Of a stretch of DNA of 15,142 nt, positions 2,040 to 15,142 are shown piece by piece. Numbering within the stretch: position 1 is the first letter of the stretch; every line of letters starts with the position of its first letter. Below the pieces are notes generated by a model that saw only the letters and a program-made list of their open reading frames with translations, ran no database searches and was not told the origin of the DNA. Location of the stretch: NCBI GenBank assembly GCA_008501735.1, contig QQUF01000011.1, positions 1 through 15,142 of the forward strand. The letters run 5' to 3'. Source of the DNA: Calditrichota bacterium. Its GTDB lineage: Bacteria > CLD3. The position numbers and the translations under genes are program-made.

Positions 2040-4247
2040 ATGCTTAAAGCTAAAAACCTTCTTTTCCTTTTTACATTTTTACTTTTCGCCCAAAGTGCTT
2101 TTGCCGAAGAAGTTCGGATTAGCCTTTGGCATCCAATGCTTTACGCAAATCGTGAAGTTTTGCGTGAAGTTTGCGACGAGTATGAAAAACTAAATCCAAA
2201 CATAAAAATCCAGCTGACTTACAGAGAGACAGAAGAACTTCGTTCAAATTTCCAATCTTCTGCAATGGGCGGAAGTGGTCCGGAATTAATTTACGGTCCA
2301 AGCGACCAAGTTGGCCCTTTCGCTTCAATGGGAATTATTCAGCCTTTGCAAGAACTTTTGTCCAAAGATTTTCTTGACCAAATTGACCCGAATGCACGAA
2401 TTTCTTTGAACGGAAATTTGTATATGGTTGGCGATATGGTTGGAAATCATTTGATGTTGATGTACAACAAAAAACTTCTCGAAACTCCACCGACGAACAC
2501 TGACGAATTAATTCAGTTTGGAAAAGAACAAACCAAAGACCTAAACGGCGACGGAAAAATTGACCAATACGGACTTGTTTGGAATTTCACAGAACCGTTT
2601 TTTTACGTGCCTTGGACGAATGGTTTTGGAGATTGGTTTTTAGACGAAAATTCTTTGCCGAATCTTCAAACCGAAGGAAACAAAGCAGGTTTTGATTTCA
2701 TAAAATCACTTCGAGACGAACACAAGATTATCCCAAAAGAATGCGATTACGAAATTGCAAACGCACTTTTCAAAGACGGAAAAGCTGCGATGATAATTAA
2801 TGGAGATTGGTCTTGGGGAGATTACCAACAAGCAGGAATTGATTTCGGAATTGTTCCGCTTCCAACAGTTTCTTCGACAGGTTTGAATCCTGCTTCTTTA
2901 GTCGGAACAAAAGGTTTTTCGCTTAACGTCAATATTGCAGAAGAAAAGATTCAGCCGACTTTGGACTTCCTAAAATTCCTTTTGAGCAAAGAAACTCAAC
3001 TTGAGTTTACAAACCAAGTAAGCCAAATGCCTTCTCATTTGGAAGCACGAAAAAGCCCGATTGTTACAGAAAATGCACTTCTCAAACAATCTGCAAAAGT
3101 TATGGAACTTGGAAGACCAATGCCTGTTGTTCCGGAAATTCGTGCAGTTTGGGACGCTTTGAGAACTCAGTACCAAGCAGTTCTTGGCGGAAATGTTTCT
3201 TCAACCGAAGCCGCAAAACTCGCTCAAGTGAATGCAGAAAAGCAAATCAAAACGATGAATGAAATCATCGAACCTGACGAACAAGCAACAGTAATTCAGA
3301 TTTTGATTCCGCTTTTACTTTTAGGATTTTTGTTTTGGGTTTTTAAAAATCTCAAGCCGTTTTTGGAAGATTGGAAGACTAACAGTTTCGCTTATTTTAT
3401 GGTTTTACCTGCTTTCATCGGAATTTTTGCAGTAATAATTTATCCGTTTTTCTACAACCTTTTGATTTCAGTTTCCAATTTTTCGCTAAGGACTTTTCAA
3501 GATTGGCAAATTGTGGGATTCCAAAATTACATTCAAGTTTTCCAAGAAGGAATTTTTTACTCCTACTTTTTCAAAACAATTTTGTGGACAGTTGTAAACT
3601 TGTTTTTCCACGTTGGAGTCGGAATTTTTCTCGCAATTTTGATTAACAGAACCTTGCCTGCCAAAAGAATGCTCCGAACACTTTTGATAATTCCTTGGGC
3701 AGTTCCGCAATACATTACAGCTTTGACTTGGAGAGGAATGTTCAACCAAGAATACGGCTCAGTGAATTTGGTTTTGGCAAAATTCATTGCAATGGAACCG
3801 ATTCAGTGGTTGAGCCAACCTTTTGAAGCATTTTCGGCTTGCATAATTACAAATATTTGGCTTGGATTTCCATTTATGATGGTGATTGCACTCGGCGGTT
3901 TACAGTCGATTCCGAAAGACCTTTACGAAGCCGCAAGAGTTGACGGAGCAACACGCTTACAACAATTTTGGAAAATCACACTTCCAATGTTGAAACCTGT
4001 GATGATTCCTGCAATCACTCTTGGAACGATTTGGACTTTCAACAACATCAACGTTGTTTGGCTCGTCAGTAACGGAGGCGAACCTTCCGACCAAACTCAC
4101 ATTTTGGTAAGTTACGTTTATAAAGCGGCTTTTAATCTCTACCGTTACGGTTACGCAGCGTCGCTTTCAATGGTAATTTTCCTAATCCTTTTGGCATTCG
4201 GAATTACATTTTTACGCAAAACTAAAGCAACGGAGTCAGTTTACTAA
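2040..4247 (+). CDS. Fused MalE-MalF: sugar-binding domain joined to ABC permease
   Basis: One 735-residue chain carries two parts of a maltose-type ABC importer. Residues 1-22 are a signal peptide (basic start, hydrophobic core, AFA before EE). Residues ~23-410 are a family 1 solute-binding domain (RISLWHPM start; GPELIYGPSDQVGPFASMGIIQPL; an EF-hand-like loop at 167-175, D-x-N-x-D-G-x-I-D; INGDWSWGDY). A membrane helix at ~418-438 leads into the cytoplasm, followed from ~450 by a six-helix MalF-type permease with the ATPase-docking EAA motif at 630-636 (EAARVDG) and on to ~650. The topology is consistent: binding domain in the periplasm, permease ends in the cytoplasm. The gene overlaps malG by one base (TAATG), giving translational coupling. 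No ATPase gene is in the window. Maltodextrin as substrate is inferred from the adjacent phosphorylase; another oligosaccharide is possible. Confidence 0.9.
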   Translation: MLKAKNLLFLFTFLLFAQSAFAEEVRISLWHPMLYANREVLREVCDEYEKLNPNIKIQLTYRETEELRSNFQSSAMGGSGPELIYGPSDQVGPFASMGIIQPLQELLSKDFLDQIDPNARISLNGNLYMVGDMVGNHLMLMYNKKLLETPPTNTDELIQFGKEQTKDLNGDGKIDQYGLVWNFTEPFFYVPWTNGFGDWFLDENSLPNLQTEGNKAGFDFIKSLRDEHKIIPKECDYEIANALFKDGKAAMIINGDWSWGDYQQAGIDFGIVPLPTVSSTGLNPASLVGTKGFSLNVNIAEEKIQPTLDFLKFLLSKETQLEFTNQVSQMPSHLEARKSPIVTENALLKQSAKVMELGRPMPVVPEIRAVWDALRTQYQAVLGGNVSSTEAAKLAQVNAEKQIKTMNEIIEPDEQATVIQILIPLLLLGFLFWVFKNLKPFLEDWKTNSFAYFMVLPAFIGIFAVIIYPFFYNLLISVSNFSLRTFQDWQIVGFQNYIQVFQEGIFYSYFFKTILWTVVNLFFHVGVGIFLAILINRTLPAKRMLRTLLIIPWAVPQYITALTWRGMFNQEYGSVNLVLAKFIAMEPIQWLSQPFEAFSACIITNIWLGFPFMMVIALGGLQSIPKDLYEAARVDGATRLQQFWKITLPMLKPVMIPAITLGTIWTFNNINVVWLVSNGGEPSDQTHILVSYVYKAAFNLYRYGYAASLSMVIFLILLAFGITFLRKTKATESVY

Positions 4248-5167
4248 TGAAAGGAACACCTTTAGAAAAATGGTTAGTTTTTGGATTTTTGTGCCTTTTC
4301 ACTTTGGCAACAATTTATCCTGTTTTGAATGTCGTTAGTATTTCGCTCAGAACCGACAACGCTTTTCAATCAAAATCTTTGTCCTTCTTGGAATTCGACG
4401 AACCTTTTGAGGACACAAATTTAAACGGAACTTGGGACGAAGGCGAAAAATTCACTGACGAAAATACAAACGGTCGTTGGGACGAAGGTTCAAGTTTTGC
4501 TTCTTACGTAATTTTGTTCACTGAAACTTCATTCTTGAAGTGGGCTTGGAATTCATTTTTGATAACTTTGGTAGTTACTTTGACAGGAGTTGCTTTGGCT
4601 TCGACAAGTGGTTATGCTCTTTCAAGGTTCAATTTTAAAGGCAAACAATTCGGAATGATTTCTTTGATGACAACGCAAATGTTTCCTGCAACAATGTTGC
4701 TTTTGCCATTTTTCATCATTCTTTCAAAACTTGGATTGATTGATTCATACCTTGGATTAATCATAATTTATTCCTCAACTGCTCTACCCTTTTGCATTTG
4801 GCAAATGAAAGGTTACTACGACACAATTCCGCCGGCTCTCGAAGAAGCTGCAAGACTTGATGGCTGTTCAAGATTTCAGGCATTTTACAAAGTTATTTTG
4901 CCACTTTCTGCACCTGCTTTGGTGATTACTGCTTTGTTCAGTTTTATGGCAAGTTGGAGCGAATACGTTGTTGCGGCAGTTGTGCTTCAAGACCCAGAAC
5001 TTTACACTTTGCCACTCGGACTAAAATCTTTCCAAGCAAGTTTGGCAACACAATGGGGTTTGTACGCCGCAGGAGCAATTGTTGTCAGCATTCCTGTAAC
5101 AGTCCTTTTCGTCGCTTTAGCAAAATATTTGGTTTCAGGTTTGACTTTAGGAAGTGTCAAAGGATAA
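4247..5167 (+). CDS. malG: MalG-type sugar ABC permease with periplasmic calcium-loop repeats
   Basis: The second permease subunit of the importer, partner of the MalE-MalF fusion. About six membrane helices are visible (roughly residues 10-33, 99-127, 138-165, 168-190, 215-248, 271-300), with the ATPase-docking EAA loop at 199-206 (EEAARLDG, continuing through FYKVILPL). It ends in GLTLGSVKG, the usual MalG-type C terminus. At 306 residues it is slightly longer than most MalG proteins. The excess lies in the periplasmic loop between helices 1 and 2, where residues 56-81 hold two 15-residue repeats D-x-N-x-N-G-x-W-D-E-G, a pattern otherwise seen in secreted calcium-binding proteins. The start overlaps the stop of the previous gene by one base. 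Tandem hairpins end the operon. The permease assignment is firm; the exact sugar and the role of the repeats are inferred. Confidence 0.9.
   Translation: MKGTPLEKWLVFGFLCLFTLATIYPVLNVVSISLRTDNAFQSKSLSFLEFDEPFEDTNLNGTWDEGEKFTDENTNGRWDEGSSFASYVILFTETSFLKWAWNSFLITLVVTLTGVALASTSGYALSRFNFKGKQFGMISLMTTQMFPATMLLLPFFIILSKLGLIDSYLGLIIIYSSTALPFCIWQMKGYYDTIPPALEEAARLDGCSRFQAFYKVILPLSAPALVITALFSFMASWSEYVVAAVVLQDPELYTLPLGLKSFQASLATQWGLYAAGAIVVSIPVTVLFVALAKYLVSGLTLGSVKG
4412..4489 (+). repeat. Two tandem 15-residue calcium-loop-like repeats within malG
   Basis: Residues D56-x-N58-x-N60-G61-x-W63-D64-E-G-E67 recur exactly 15 residues later as D71-x-N73-x-N75-G76-x-W78-D79-E80-G81. The Asp/Asn spacing is that of EF-hand/dockerin-type calcium loops. 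The segment falls in the periplasmic loop between helices 1 and 2. Calcium binding is inferred from the pattern only. Confidence 0.8.
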
Positions 5168-8946: not shown

Positions 8947-10041
8947 TTAGTAATCCCTTTTGTAAAAAGGAGGTCTTACAATTGTAATCGGAAGAAACTT
9001 AGAACCTATTTTCACTTCAAGCTCTGTTCCAATTTTTGCAAATTCAGATTTTACGTAACCTAAACCAATGTTTTGTTCTGTACTTGGCGAAAAGTTTCCG
9101 CTTGTAACTTCACCAATTTCTTCACCGTTTGCAAAAATCTTGGTGTGTTGCCTTGCGATTCTTTTTGAGTTTACCACAAACCCAGCTAATTTCCGACTTG
9201 GTTTTTCAGCTTTCACTTTTGCAATTGCTTCTTTTCCAATGAATTCACCTTTGTCAACTTTTGTAATCCAACCCAAAGTAGCTTCAATCGGATTAGTTGT
9301 TTCGTCGATGTCATTTCCGTAAAGTGCCATCTTCATTTCCATTCTCAAAGAATCTCTTGCACCTAAACCAACAGGTTCAATTCCAAATTCTTCACCTGCT
9401 TCGAAAACTTTTTTCCAAAGTTCTTCCGAATACTCAGTTGGTAAGTAAACTTCAAAACCATCTTCACCAGTGTAACCTGTTCTTGAAATTATTGCTTCAA
9501 CTCCGCCAATTTTGTCAACAGTGAAGTAGTAGTATTTAATTTCAGTAGTATCGAAATCAACTAACTTTTGCACAACTTTTTCAGCATTTCTTCCTTGAAT
9601 TGCAAAAAGTGTGTAGTTGTCGCCAACGTCTTCAAACTTAACATTGTCTGTTAAATGACTTTTCATCCAAGCAATATCTTTGTCTCGATTTCCAGCATTG
9701 ATTACAAGAAAAAACTCGTCTTCTGACATTCGGTAAACCAACAAGTCATCAACAATTCCGCCATTTTCGTAACACATTGCCGAATAATGTGCTTGGTGAA
9801 TTTTTAGTGCAGCAACGTCATTTACAGTAATTTTTTGGACAAAGTCTAAAGCTCCTTCACCAGAAACAATCACTTCTCCCATATGCGAAACGTCAAAAAC
9901 TCCAACTGAACTACGCACTATTTTATGTTCGTGAATTATGCCTTTTGAATACTGAACAGGCATTAAATATCCACCAAAATTTACCATTTTTGCACCCAAA
10001 GACTCGTGAACGTGAGTAAGTGCTAATCTTTTTGGTTCCAT
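8947..10041 (-). CDS. gcvT: Glycine cleavage system T protein (aminomethyltransferase)
   Basis: A 364-residue enzyme of normal family length. It takes the aminomethyl group from the lipoyl arm of the H protein and passes it to tetrahydrofolate, giving 5,10-methylene-THF and ammonia; cytoplasmic. Visible motifs: ALTHVHESLGAKMVNFGG (7-24), MPVQY (27-31), FDVSHMGE (49-56), then GGIVDDLLVYR (94-104) with the folate-contacting Asp of the family among D98/D99, and SRTGYTGEDGFEVYLP (about 190-205). The C-terminal barrel has the usual SGNFSPSTEQNIGLGYV. All landmark residues are present, so it should be active. It is the last gene of a three-gene operon, 8 bases after ppsR; gcvH and gcvP are not in the window. 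GGAG lies 12 bases before the ATG, overlapping the end of ppsR, so start-site recognition may depend on coupling. Confidence 0.96.
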   Translation of the reverse strand: MEPKRLALTHVHESLGAKMVNFGGYLMPVQYSKGIIHEHKIVRSSVGVFDVSHMGEVIVSGEGALDFVQKITVNDVAALKIHQAHYSAMCYENGGIVDDLLVYRMSEDEFFLVINAGNRDKDIAWMKSHLTDNVKFEDVGDNYTLFAIQGRNAEKVVQKLVDFDTTEIKYYYFTVDKIGGVEAIISRTGYTGEDGFEVYLPTEYSEELWKKVFEAGEEFGIEPVGLGARDSLRMEMKMALYGNDIDETTNPIEATLGWITKVDKGEFIGKEAIAKVKAEKPSRKLAGFVVNSKRIARQHTKIFANGEEIGEVTSGNFSPSTEQNIGLGYVKSEFAKIGTELEVKIGSKFLPITIVRPPFYKRDY

Positions 10042-12251: not shown

Positions 12252-13142
12252 ATGAACTTGTACCTCCGTGACTTTCTCAACTTTCTCAAACTCGAAAAAG
12301 GGCTTTCCGAAAACACAATCGCTTCTTACAACTTCGATTTAGTAAAATTCAGCTGTTTTTTAAACGATTCACAAAACTCATTTGAAAAAGTTTCACCCGA
12401 ATCAATTACACTTTACTTAGAAAGACTCACTCAAGAAAATTACTCTTCCACAAGTATTTCAAGACACATCAGTTCTCTAAAATCATTCTACAAATTTTTG
12501 CTTCGCGAAGAAGTTGTTGAAGTAAATCCATTAGAATTAGTTTCCACTCGAAAAAATCCAAGAAAATTACCTGATGTTTTAACCGAAGAAGAAGTTGATG
12601 ACATTTTTAAACAACCACAAACAACAACTGAAATCGGACTTCGAGACAGAGCGATGTTAGAAATGATTTACGGTTGTGGTTTACGAGTTTCGGAATTGAT
12701 TGGTTTTCAGCAAGAAGACTTGTTTTTTGACGAAGAATTGATTAGAGTGAAGGGCAAAGGCTCAAAAGAAAGACTTGTTCCAATCGGTGAAACGGCAATT
12801 TATTGGATTAAACTTTACCAAAACCAAGTTAGACTTGGTTGGAAGAAACAAGGAATTAGCCTTGATTTTTTATTTTTAAACTGGCGAGGAAAATCTCTTT
12901 CACGAATGGGGTTTTTAAAAATTTTAAGAAATTACGTTCAAAAAGCAGAAGTTACAAAAAAAGTAACTCCACACACTTTTCGCCACTCTTTTGCAACTCA
13001 TTTGTTAGAAGGTGGAGCAGATTTGCGAGCAGTTCAAGCAATGCTTGGTCACGCAGACATTTCCACAACACAAATTTACACAAGAGTTGACAGAGAGCTT
13101 TTAAAAGAAATTCACAAAACTTACCACCCGAGAGGTCGCTAA
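12252..13142 (+). CDS. xerD: Tyrosine recombinase, XerD-type
   Basis: A 296-residue site-specific recombinase, the usual Xer length. Residues ~1-85 are the SAM-like core-binding domain (LEKGLSENTIASYNFDL; SSTSISRHISSLKSFYKFL), and residues ~105-296 the catalytic domain. All catalytic residues align: R145 (GLRVSEL), K169 (KGKGSKERLVP), H241 and R244 (HTFRH), H267 (GHADISTTQIYT) and the nucleophile Y276. Spacings (R to K 24, H to Y 9) equal those of E. coli XerD. With XerC or alone it resolves chromosome dimers at dif; no dif site is recognisable nearby. The sequence looks like a housekeeping Xer protein rather than an integron or phage integrase. Two bases after its stop the cysteine-array gene starts. 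No clear Shine-Dalgarno sequence precedes the ATG. XerC cannot be excluded. Confidence 0.93.
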   Translation: MNLYLRDFLNFLKLEKGLSENTIASYNFDLVKFSCFLNDSQNSFEKVSPESITLYLERLTQENYSSTSISRHISSLKSFYKFLLREEVVEVNPLELVSTRKNPRKLPDVLTEEEVDDIFKQPQTTTEIGLRDRAMLEMIYGCGLRVSELIGFQQEDLFFDEELIRVKGKGSKERLVPIGETAIYWIKLYQNQVRLGWKKQGISLDFLFLNWRGKSLSRMGFLKILRNYVQKAEVTKKVTPHTFRHSFATHLLEGGADLRAVQAMLGHADISTTQIYTRVDRELLKEIHKTYHPRGR

Positions 13143-13144
13143 AC

Positions 13145-14869
13145 TTGAAAGATTTTATCCAACATTTTTTTGAAGCAAGAAATTGTAAAGTCCAAGATGT
13201 CAAAAATAGATTACTTGTAGAACTCACTCCTGAACTCCAAACAGAATTCCGCTCTGAAAAACTACACCTTGCTTTTACGTCCAAAAGCCTTACCGAAAAT
13301 TCGGAACTCGTTACTCACGGAAGTTACATTCCAACAAAGATTTTATCAATTTTATCTGAAGAAGGACAAAAGGTTGTTGGGAAATTACCTTCTCAAAACA
13401 CCTTATCGAAAAAGGCTTTTCAAGAATCTCTTTCCACTAAAAGTTCAGAAATCAAAAAATTAACTCGAACAACAAAATTGAATTACGAGCTAATTTTTAA
13501 TTTCAAAGCAACCTTTGTTTCAGACGAAAAATTCGACGAGCTCTATTCTGTCAAACTTTTCGAGGAAAAAGCCAAAGTCTCAAAAATTGAATTTGTGAAA
13601 AACGAGAAAGTCGAAGAACTAACACACAGAGACTCTGGAGTGATTTCTGAAGCAGAAATCGAAGCGAAACTATTTTTTGCAACCGAAACACTTCAAAATT
13701 ATCTCACTAAAAGAACTTCCGAGATAGAAAAGGAAGTTTTAAAAAGACTATACGAAAATTTAAAAAGACTTAAAAGTTACTACGGTGAGCAAATTGCAGC
13801 TTTCCGAAGAAGCTCAGTTCCTGGTACAGACGAAAAAGCAGAATTCATAGAGATGGAGCTGAAAAAGAAGAAAATTGAGGAAGTTAAAAATCATTCTCTC
13901 AAAGTCGAATTACAATTAATAAGTTTCCAGCTTTTAGAAAGAAAAGTTTACCATTTTGATTTCCATCTCAAAAGTTCAACTTTAGAAAAAAATATTTCAG
14001 CAAGTTTCGATACTTTCAATGGGAAACTCACTTACCCAACTTGCGAAGGTTGTGGTGAACAAACTTCTAAAATTGAACTTTGCGATTCAAAACACTTACT
14101 TTGCCCTAATTGCCTTTCCGTTTGCGAAAAATGTGGAGAAATGGCTTGTCGAAGTTGTGGAGTCGAAACTTGTTCTGTTTCAGGCGAAATTTTATGCCAA
14201 AATTGCCAAAAAATTTGCGATTCTTGTGGACAAGCAACTTGCGATAATCACTCACATTTTTCACAAGAAGAAAACGAGTTAATTTGCGAAAATTGTTTAA
14301 TAGTTTGCAAGAATTGTCAATCTAAAGTATCAATTGACCACGCTGGAGGCTGTTCAGTTTCCAACGAATCTTTCTTTTGTGAAAATTGCTTAAATGTTTG
14401 CTCTAAATGCCAAAAGCAATACTTAAAAAATTATGAAAAAGAATGCACCCACTGTGGACAAATTTATTGTGAAGATTGCTCTCAAAAATGTTTTTACTGT
14501 GAAAGAAATAATTGCCAATCTCACTTATCAAACTGTAATATTTGTGCCAAAAGTTTATGCAAAAATCATTCTCACCAATGTTCAATGAGTAATTCTACTC
14601 TTTGTAAAGAGCATTCAAAACAATGTAATGGTTGTGGGAAAGAATTCAGAGAAACTTTTGTAACCGAATTAGGTAACTTAGATTTACACTACTGCAACAC
14701 TTGTTCTGAAAATATTAACTTTCAAGAGGCTAAAGAGCCACCAAAAGAATTTTCAGAAAAGAAAATAAGAGATAGTAATACAAAGTGGTATTTCTTAAAA
14801 GGTATAATTAATGATGTATGGATTTCAAAAGGGGGTGAACTAATTTACTACAAAAGAACTAATCATTAA
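13145..14869 (+). CDS. Unrecognised protein with tandem cysteine/zinc-knuckle array
   Basis: I do not recognise this 574-residue protein. Residues 1-~165 are alpha/beta (FIQHFFEARNCKVQDV; LLVELTPELQ; ELVTHGSYIPTKILSIL). Residues ~167-265 are charged and helical (TSEIEKEVLKRLYENLKRLK), perhaps coiled coil. Residues 300-520 hold 40 cysteines, mostly C-x2-C pairs, in modules whose leading pairs are at 300, 327, 358, 388, 419, 449/464 and 494. A recurring part is C-S-[VM]-S-[GN]-x-x-(x)-[LF]-C-x-x-[CH] at 343, 403 and 479. Structural zinc binding is inferred. The tail (521-574) lacks cysteines. There is no signal peptide or membrane helix, so it is probably cytoplasmic. The start is TTG, 2 bases after the xerD stop, indicating coupling. 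The N-terminal part vaguely recalls Bacillus YqhG, encoded next to an SNF2-type helicase (from memory, weak). A nucleic-acid or protein scaffold is possible; no enzyme motif is seen. Confidence 0.85.
   Translation: MKDFIQHFFEARNCKVQDVKNRLLVELTPELQTEFRSEKLHLAFTSKSLTENSELVTHGSYIPTKILSILSEEGQKVVGKLPSQNTLSKKAFQESLSTKSSEIKKLTRTTKLNYELIFNFKATFVSDEKFDELYSVKLFEEKAKVSKIEFVKNEKVEELTHRDSGVISEAEIEAKLFFATETLQNYLTKRTSEIEKEVLKRLYENLKRLKSYYGEQIAAFRRSSVPGTDEKAEFIEMELKKKKIEEVKNHSLKVELQLISFQLLERKVYHFDFHLKSSTLEKNISASFDTFNGKLTYPTCEGCGEQTSKIELCDSKHLLCPNCLSVCEKCGEMACRSCGVETCSVSGEILCQNCQKICDSCGQATCDNHSHFSQEENELICENCLIVCKNCQSKVSIDHAGGCSVSNESFFCENCLNVCSKCQKQYLKNYEKECTHCGQIYCEDCSQKCFYCERNNCQSHLSNCNICAKSLCKNHSHQCSMSNSTLCKEHSKQCNGCGKEFRETFVTELGNLDLHYCNTCSENINFQEAKEPPKEFSEKKIRDSNTKWYFLKGIINDVWISKGGELIYYKRTNH
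14042..14704 (+). repeat. Coding array of about seven cysteine-rich modules of 27-31 residues
   Basis: Leading C-x2-C pairs are spaced 27, 31, 30, 31, 30 and 45 residues apart (the last contains an extra 15-residue half unit, C449 to C464). Each typical unit reads C-x2-C-x4-C-x2-[CH]-...-C-x2-C-x3 before the next pair. The units have diverged in DNA, so the array is old rather than a recent expansion. Confidence 0.8.
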
Positions 14870-15063: not shown

Positions 15064-15142
15064 AAAGCTGGCGATGACCGACTCTCCCACCTCATTATAA
15101 GGCAGTACCATAGGCGCTAGTGGTCTTAACTACTCTGTTCGG
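15064..15142 (-). rRNA. rrf: 5S ribosomal RNA, 3' part (5' end outside the window)
   Basis: Read on the minus strand, the last ~79 bases give CCGAACAGAGTAGTTAAG, then ACCACTAGCGCCTATGGTACT, GGTGGGAGAGTCGGTCATCGCC and AGC. These match the conserved 5S core: the CCGAAC of loop B/helix III, the TAGCGCC-GATGGTA-like loop A/E region, GGGAGAGT of helix IV/loop E, and the 3' strand of helix I. About 35-40 bases of the 5' part are missing. The 3' end is placed near 15064-15067 by comparison with known 5S ends. It should be the last gene of an rRNA operon arriving from the right, convergent with the xerD operon. Confidence 0.92.

Follow-up and report, generated by a model that had tools for sequence, protein, structure and literature searches.

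A cysteine-array protein of a Calditrichota bacterium as the probable second subunit of a split RapA-type motor

RapA removes post-termination RNA polymerase from DNA (PMC8666675). Its ATPase core is followed by a Spacer and then by a C-terminal domain, and D744, a residue of the Spacer, is in contact with the beta' zinc-binding domain (PMC8501970). The RapA-like helicase YqhH of Bacillus subtilis goes by the name HepA/RapA in the literature, which counts it among the poorly characterised proteins (PMC7385302). Its gene belongs to those of sigma-F and shows a signal in sporulation timing (PMC4703394), and yqhG is a listed sporulation gene present in all the Bacilli compared (PMC3533761). YqhG itself is annotated as of unknown function. 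HelD of Gram-positives clears and recycles RNA polymerase (PMC7749165), as the motor proposed here may do, but it is an SF1-type NTPase unrelated to SNF2. The literature covered on YqhG, YqhH and RapA, with most subscription papers lying outside it, holds no statement that YqhG corresponds to the RapA C-terminal region and no mention of a form carrying a zinc array. RapA-type SNF2 motors as such are known; what would be new here is a split one that bears a zinc array. The protein described below is probably the second subunit of such a two-piece motor, with a zinc-binding array.

Gene setting and N-terminal domain

The window, by which we mean the whole stretch of DNA analysed, is an entire contig of 15142 bases in a genome totalling 4.14 Mb. 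The ORF under study encodes a YqhG-like/RapA-C-like domain, a Cys-rich array and a C-terminal tail, and the features to which the text refers are as follows.

12252-13142, plus strand: gene of a XerD-type tyrosine recombinase, separated from the ORF by 2 bp and a neighbour by position only
13130-13135, plus strand: Shine-Dalgarno-like GAGAGG, read from the sequence, 5' of the TTG start and within the end of the xerD-like gene
13145-14869, plus strand: ORF of 574 aa, start codon TTG, homologs in all nine genomes examined of the window's class
13145-14035, plus strand: YqhG-like domain, residues 1-297, structural counterpart of RapA 715-968
14042-14704, plus strand: tandem Cys/His array, residues 300-520, with 40 Cys and a period of about 15/30 residues
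14042-14134, plus strand: first module of the array, residues 300-330, C-x2-C-x9-C-x3-H-x2-C-x2-C-x3-C-x2-C, with RING-like C3HC4 spacing
14720-14866, plus strand: C-terminal tail, residues 526-574, of low model confidence

A functional linkage with XerD was considered and dropped, because the arrangement is not conserved: XerD linkage to the Cys-array gene was absent at the loci of relatives inspected. The window also contains gcvT (8947-10041), some 3 kb away from the YqhG-like gene, and in B. subtilis gcvT is a neighbour of yqhH; since the SNF2 gene sits elsewhere in the present genome, this proximity is probably due to chance. Two further reading frames, with translations read by eye, were a 735-aa chain that apparently combines a sugar-binding protein and a MalF-type permease (2040-4247) and, after it, a MalG-type permease with a calcium-loop-like DTNLNGTWDEGE insert (4247-5167). 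The contig ends in a truncated 5S rRNA gene on the minus strand (15066-15142), that is, it breaks off within an rRNA operon, and for this reason the sequence further downstream is missing.

The preliminary description had presented the ORF as a protein of unknown family; that it is an isolated protein of this kind is not supported, given the kinship of its N-terminal part with YqhG, the RapA C-terminal fold of that part and the co-occurrence with an SNF2 protein set out below. The Pfam YqhG family (PF11079) matched the window protein at E 0.0015 and 18 bits (20.5 bits in the whole-genome search), under the gathering cut-off of 25 bits, and four of the nine class homologs at E<=0.1. Alignment of family profiles with hhalign gave E 6e-8 for the class homologs against Paenibacillaceae YqhG and, against YqhG, E 1e-11 for the relatives with a single zinc module and 1.5e-12 for those with large arrays. 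As judged from these comparisons of sequence, the N-terminal 297 residues are a distant relative of YqhG. The Bacilli protein shares this homologous domain but differs from the window protein in having no zinc array, with only 3-6 Cys in about 286-354 residues, and in Paenibacillaceae its gene always adjoined a YqhH-type SNF2 gene (SNF2-YqhG order in 9/9 loci inspected), whereas the window gene is unlinked.

The structural models led to RapA. AlphaFold2 gave a mean pLDDT of 79.8 for the whole protein and of 83.0 for residues 1-297 folded alone, the latter comprising an alpha/beta part, a long helical hairpin (169-249) and the last strands. When either model was compared with the PDB by Foldseek, the top four matches, which were also the sole ones at E<=0.001, were E. 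coli RapA (prob 1.00; best E 4.1e-4 with the full model and 7.4e-5 with the N-domain alone). VIA-align superposed 217-226 residues, model 1-269 lying on RapA 715-968, and its best entries reached Z 8.2-9.3; with the N-domain folded alone, Z was 8.2-8.9 over 217-225 residues. At an rmsd of 5-6 A, Z values of 8-9 are moderate, and the long helical hairpin is part of the match. The next rows other than RapA had Z 6.8 and below over about 60-90 residues, nearly all of them in long helices. Following the naming of the regions behind the ATPase core, RapA 715-968 therefore corresponds to part of the Spacer plus the C-terminal domain. In agreement with the structural register, the profile of the N-domain family, aligned with that of nine C-terminal sequences of RapA, yielded E 7.9e-5 and a score of 40.9 over 233 columns, the best of 30 column shuffles scoring 19.1 and the reversed profile 21.2. 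The family profile was required for this result, as single-sequence hhalign to E. coli RapA gave no match, and the window protein alone had no significant match by sequence in the PDB. Pfam RapA_C (PF12137) did not match in the window's genome (the E. coli control was positive), and no overlap of RapA_C and YqhG in the same genome was seen, the expected overlap being only about one genome, too little for the result to be informative.

In summary of the comparison with E. coli RapA 715-968, the N-domain resembles it in predicted fold and through a weak, register-consistent profile match; in contrast, E. coli RapA is a single polypeptide, in which the C-terminal region follows the ATPase core, and lacks a long Cys array, and the window protein lacks the RapA_C match. 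Because the defining cut-offs are not reached, we do not class the protein as a member of Pfam YqhG or of RapA. Its N-terminal half can be placed and its array cannot; the full-length match to a characterised family, which the preliminary description named as refuting evidence, was obtained for half of the protein only.

The probable SNF2 partner

The window's genome encodes three SNF2 proteins. One is of YqhH type (641 aa, G000:C12:44351-46273) and lies on another contig than the window; of the three, it came closest to each SNF2 protein encoded beside a YqhG-type gene in other genomes, at about 38-54% identity, while the other two aligned with these over long stretches at about 22-31% and resemble the defence helicases ZorD and DpdE. 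For the C12 protein the nearest solved structure was again RapA, and hhalign of its family with the RapA family gave E 1e-61, although Pfam reported no RapA N-terminal domain family on it. On the alignment with RapA, the SNF2 protein of the window's genome ends near residue 709. The two proteins, SNF2 to about 709 and the window protein from 715, tile RapA from the ATPase through the C-terminus.

In the 20 gene pairs measured, the SNF2 gene was followed on the same strand by the YqhG-type gene at -17 to +24 bp, with a 4-bp overlap in nine of them; gene overlap of this sort is a usual sign of translational coupling. Outside the window's class adjacency was nearly universal, G248, which has both genes but apart, being an exception, whereas within the class the subunit gene and the SNF2 gene are unlinked and on different contigs. 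Nevertheless, an SNF2 ortholog with 57-73% identity to the C12 copy was present in eight of the nine class genomes; no SNF2 partner was found in the ninth (G008, in 620 contigs). Among 386 genomes, 27 had both proteins (a count that takes in G208 through its fused module), 2 the SNF2 only and 3 the subunit only (Fisher 6.5e-36, kinship being considered only by family counts). The first profile, which predates our knowledge of the SNF2 linkage, gave a comparable picture, with SNF2 in 23 of 26 matches (Fisher 1.9e-28); since those with SNF2 were spread over 14 taxonomic families, a single clade cannot account for the co-occurrence.

Two polypeptides were present in all genomes inspected except for the fusion-like L178 and L182. 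The former is a probable fusion of SNF2 with one zinc module, and in G208 the SNF2 gene is fused to a single zinc module. At L182 3676-7386 (G145), a 1237-aa SNF2 protein carries a degenerate C-terminal Cys array of CxxSGK-type units; it is possibly a natural fusion of both subunits. As its RapA-C-like part is only weakly detected, we take neither L178 nor L182 as proof. A 268-aa ORF adjoining the SNF2 gene of G098 gave a short helical match only.

The SNF2 partner had matches in PADLOC (DrmD, BrxH, ZorD), but a defence system was rejected as the leading reading, since these are shared-ATPase matches spread over many families and PADLOC had no match for the Cys protein. Separately, the window's genome has a Zorya-type defence operon on G000:C48 (L025 7610-14777), with the ZorD-like helicase and three neighbour ORFs of fitting size, and on G000:C18 (L027 3-2243) the DpdE-like SNF2 helicase stands beside a 1714-aa ORF, possibly another defence locus.

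The cysteine array and its variation

Forty of the 41 Cys of the ORF fall within the 221 residues from 300 to 520, exactly as first counted, and the remaining 353 residues contain one. Judged against composition-preserving shuffles of the array, the Cys autocorrelation showed an excess at lag 30 (18 pairs, 6.2 expected, z 5.7) and at lag 15 (17 pairs, 6.6 expected, z 4.9), and further ones at lags 61 (z 4.5) and 3 (z 4.1). The excess at both 15 and 30 indicates that the basic unit is of about 15 residues; the spacing of 30-31 residues reported in the preliminary description is thus a true peak, but one that represents two units. Likewise, the C-S-[VM]-S element described there as shared does exist, but it occurs three times (residues 343, 403 and 472) and is not common to all modules.

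The AlphaFold2 model of the array presents a short strand-turn-strand unit every 15 residues or so, with pLDDT of about 85-91. FYVE and LIM domains matched it weakly by fold (VIA-align, Z under 5), and by sequence the array profile weakly hit the RBR ligase RNF31 as well as FYVE domains in the PDB. The large tandem Cys/His array of the preliminary description is thereby supported. Pfam, NCBIfam, PHROGs and PADLOC contained nothing above cut-off for the array, and in this respect the absence of a known family is upheld. The RING C3HC4 pattern is C-x2-C-x(9-39)-C-x(1-3)-H-x(2-3)-C-x2-C-x(4-48)-C-x2-C, and the first module follows it save for the final gap, of 3 residues where the pattern has 4 or more. 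The array is like the treble clefs of RING, FYVE and LIM domains in this spacing of its first module and in its repeated short strand-turn-strand units, and unlike them in that a 15-residue unit is used many times per chain and the fold scores are weak; a ubiquitin-like context of the array was not seen. From the motif spacing and the expected cytoplasmic setting, zinc binding by the array is likely.

The profile built from the nine class sequences retrieved relatives in many other families. Within the class the array is conserved in kind in 9/9 genomes but not in length (23-41 Cys), so that the conservation anticipated earlier holds for the former only: homologs of the window's own family have 36-41 Cys, and those of a sister family, in which the C-x3-H pair of the first module is missing, are of about 450 aa with 23-28 Cys. 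Across lineages, array size goes from none, as in YqhG of Bacilli and other array-less relatives, through one module (L101, L104-L106 and L110, 10-15 Cys) to about 67 Cys, the large-array relatives L095-L100 having about 60-70 Cys in all. The first module is the only one retained in the one-module relatives. The constant part of the family is the N-terminal domain and not the array. The C-terminal tail (526-574) aligned loosely with the tails of two large-array relatives (L097 and L098). A Cys-rich ORF in G064 and a match in G274 were probably Cys-driven and were excluded from the support. Where arrays are long, the SNF2 protein of the lineage bears a zinc ribbon at its N-terminus, RCPxCGWLDxxxxxECFRCG, that is absent from lineages with no array or one module; the lineages compared are not independent, and G068, with 39 Cys and no SNF2 ribbon, is an exception.

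Proposed motor and alternative explanations

We believe, with good though not full confidence, that the window protein is the accessory subunit in a RapA-type Swi2/Snf2 translocase built from two polypeptides, and that it has acquired a zinc-finger-like array of variable size. According to this proposal, the RapA chain would be divided near residue 710 into the YqhH-type SNF2 ATPase and the window protein, whose residues 1-269 would correspond to RapA 715-968, with zinc-finger-like units, at least the first of RING-type spacing, fused behind. The two subunits would assemble into one motor, the SNF2 subunit translocating along double-stranded DNA at the expense of ATP and the window subunit taking the place that the C-terminal region has on the ATPase of RapA. 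The array could then act as a rigid arm that docks on a target, for which RNA polymerase or some other protein is the likeliest candidate, and translocation would pry the docked target off DNA, as RapA does with post-termination RNA polymerase. Being near neutral or acidic (net charge of about -9 in the window protein and between -5 and +5 elsewhere), the array seems better suited to docking on proteins than to binding nucleic acids by itself. That the target is RNA polymerase we put forward tentatively, at somewhat less than even confidence; the link of yqhH with UV survival (see below) and the sporulation listing of yqhG may point away from it. A little more doubtful still is a wider proposal, that YqhH-YqhG is a two-subunit RapA in many bacterial lineages, with YqhG as its missing C-terminal region, and that in several of them a zinc arm of up to about 67 Cys has taken over from the RapA N-terminal domain the sensing of RNA polymerase, alongside the zinc ribbon of the ATPase. 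Against the two-subunit motor stand the unlinked genes in the class, the failure to find an SNF2 partner in G008, the YqhG score below cut-off, the lack of RapA_C and the moderate Z values.

Of the other explanations, the one that survives best keeps the SNF2 motor but assigns it to DNA repair or replication forks, the array binding damaged or branched DNA or repair proteins. In B. thuringiensis, knockout of yqhH lowered UV survival and purified YqhH hydrolysed ATP and unwound DNA (PMC10054049), and an eDNA screen in B. subtilis found yqhG together with mfd and topA (PMC3487849). However, RapA is the nearest solved structure for each of the two subunits, the array is not basic, and reported rapA deletions of E. 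coli had no UV phenotype (PMC8501970), although the latter tells against repair by RapA itself and not necessarily by the present motor; we consider a repair role unlikely.

If the protein were instead a stand-alone scaffold or a RING-type ligase-like protein with no SNF2 role in the class, the unlinked class genes, the RING-like C3HC4 spacing of the first module and the weak profile matches to RNF31 and FYVE domains would be readily understood. Such a protein would hardly be expected to co-occur with SNF2 in 8/9 class genomes or to keep a RapA-like domain that has not diverged away; moreover, the FYVE/LIM structural scores are weak, and the SNF2 linkage is kept in one-module and no-module relatives, which argues that the array is the variable part. 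This makes a stand-alone function improbable. A metallothionein-like store or sensor buffering zinc or other metals, suggested by 40 Cys in 221 residues, is very improbable, as the array sits on a conserved RapA-like domain in a family that co-occurs with an ATPase, lineages differ in their Cys number from hardly any to about 67, and the array is predicted to be ordered and regularly repeated, unlike disordered metallothionein. Of the two possibilities named in the preliminary description, a multi-zinc scaffold is thus better supported than a metal store.

If the split-RapA reading is true, YqhG gains a place and a testable partner, in the tractable laboratory species B. subtilis and in uncultured lineages alike; RapA-type motors would exist as two-subunit machines, and their accessory subunit would be able to extend into a modular arm of zinc units, and the array would be an unusually large treble-clef-like one for a bacterial protein. 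In the neighbourhood of these genes, the SNF2 gene is preceded by that of an AAA ATPase in two genomes, and in others a DUF1257 gene follows directly 3' of the zinc-array gene (listed jointly at L098 10638-12527, L099 5744-7255 and L096 8956-9318), and both are possible further partners.
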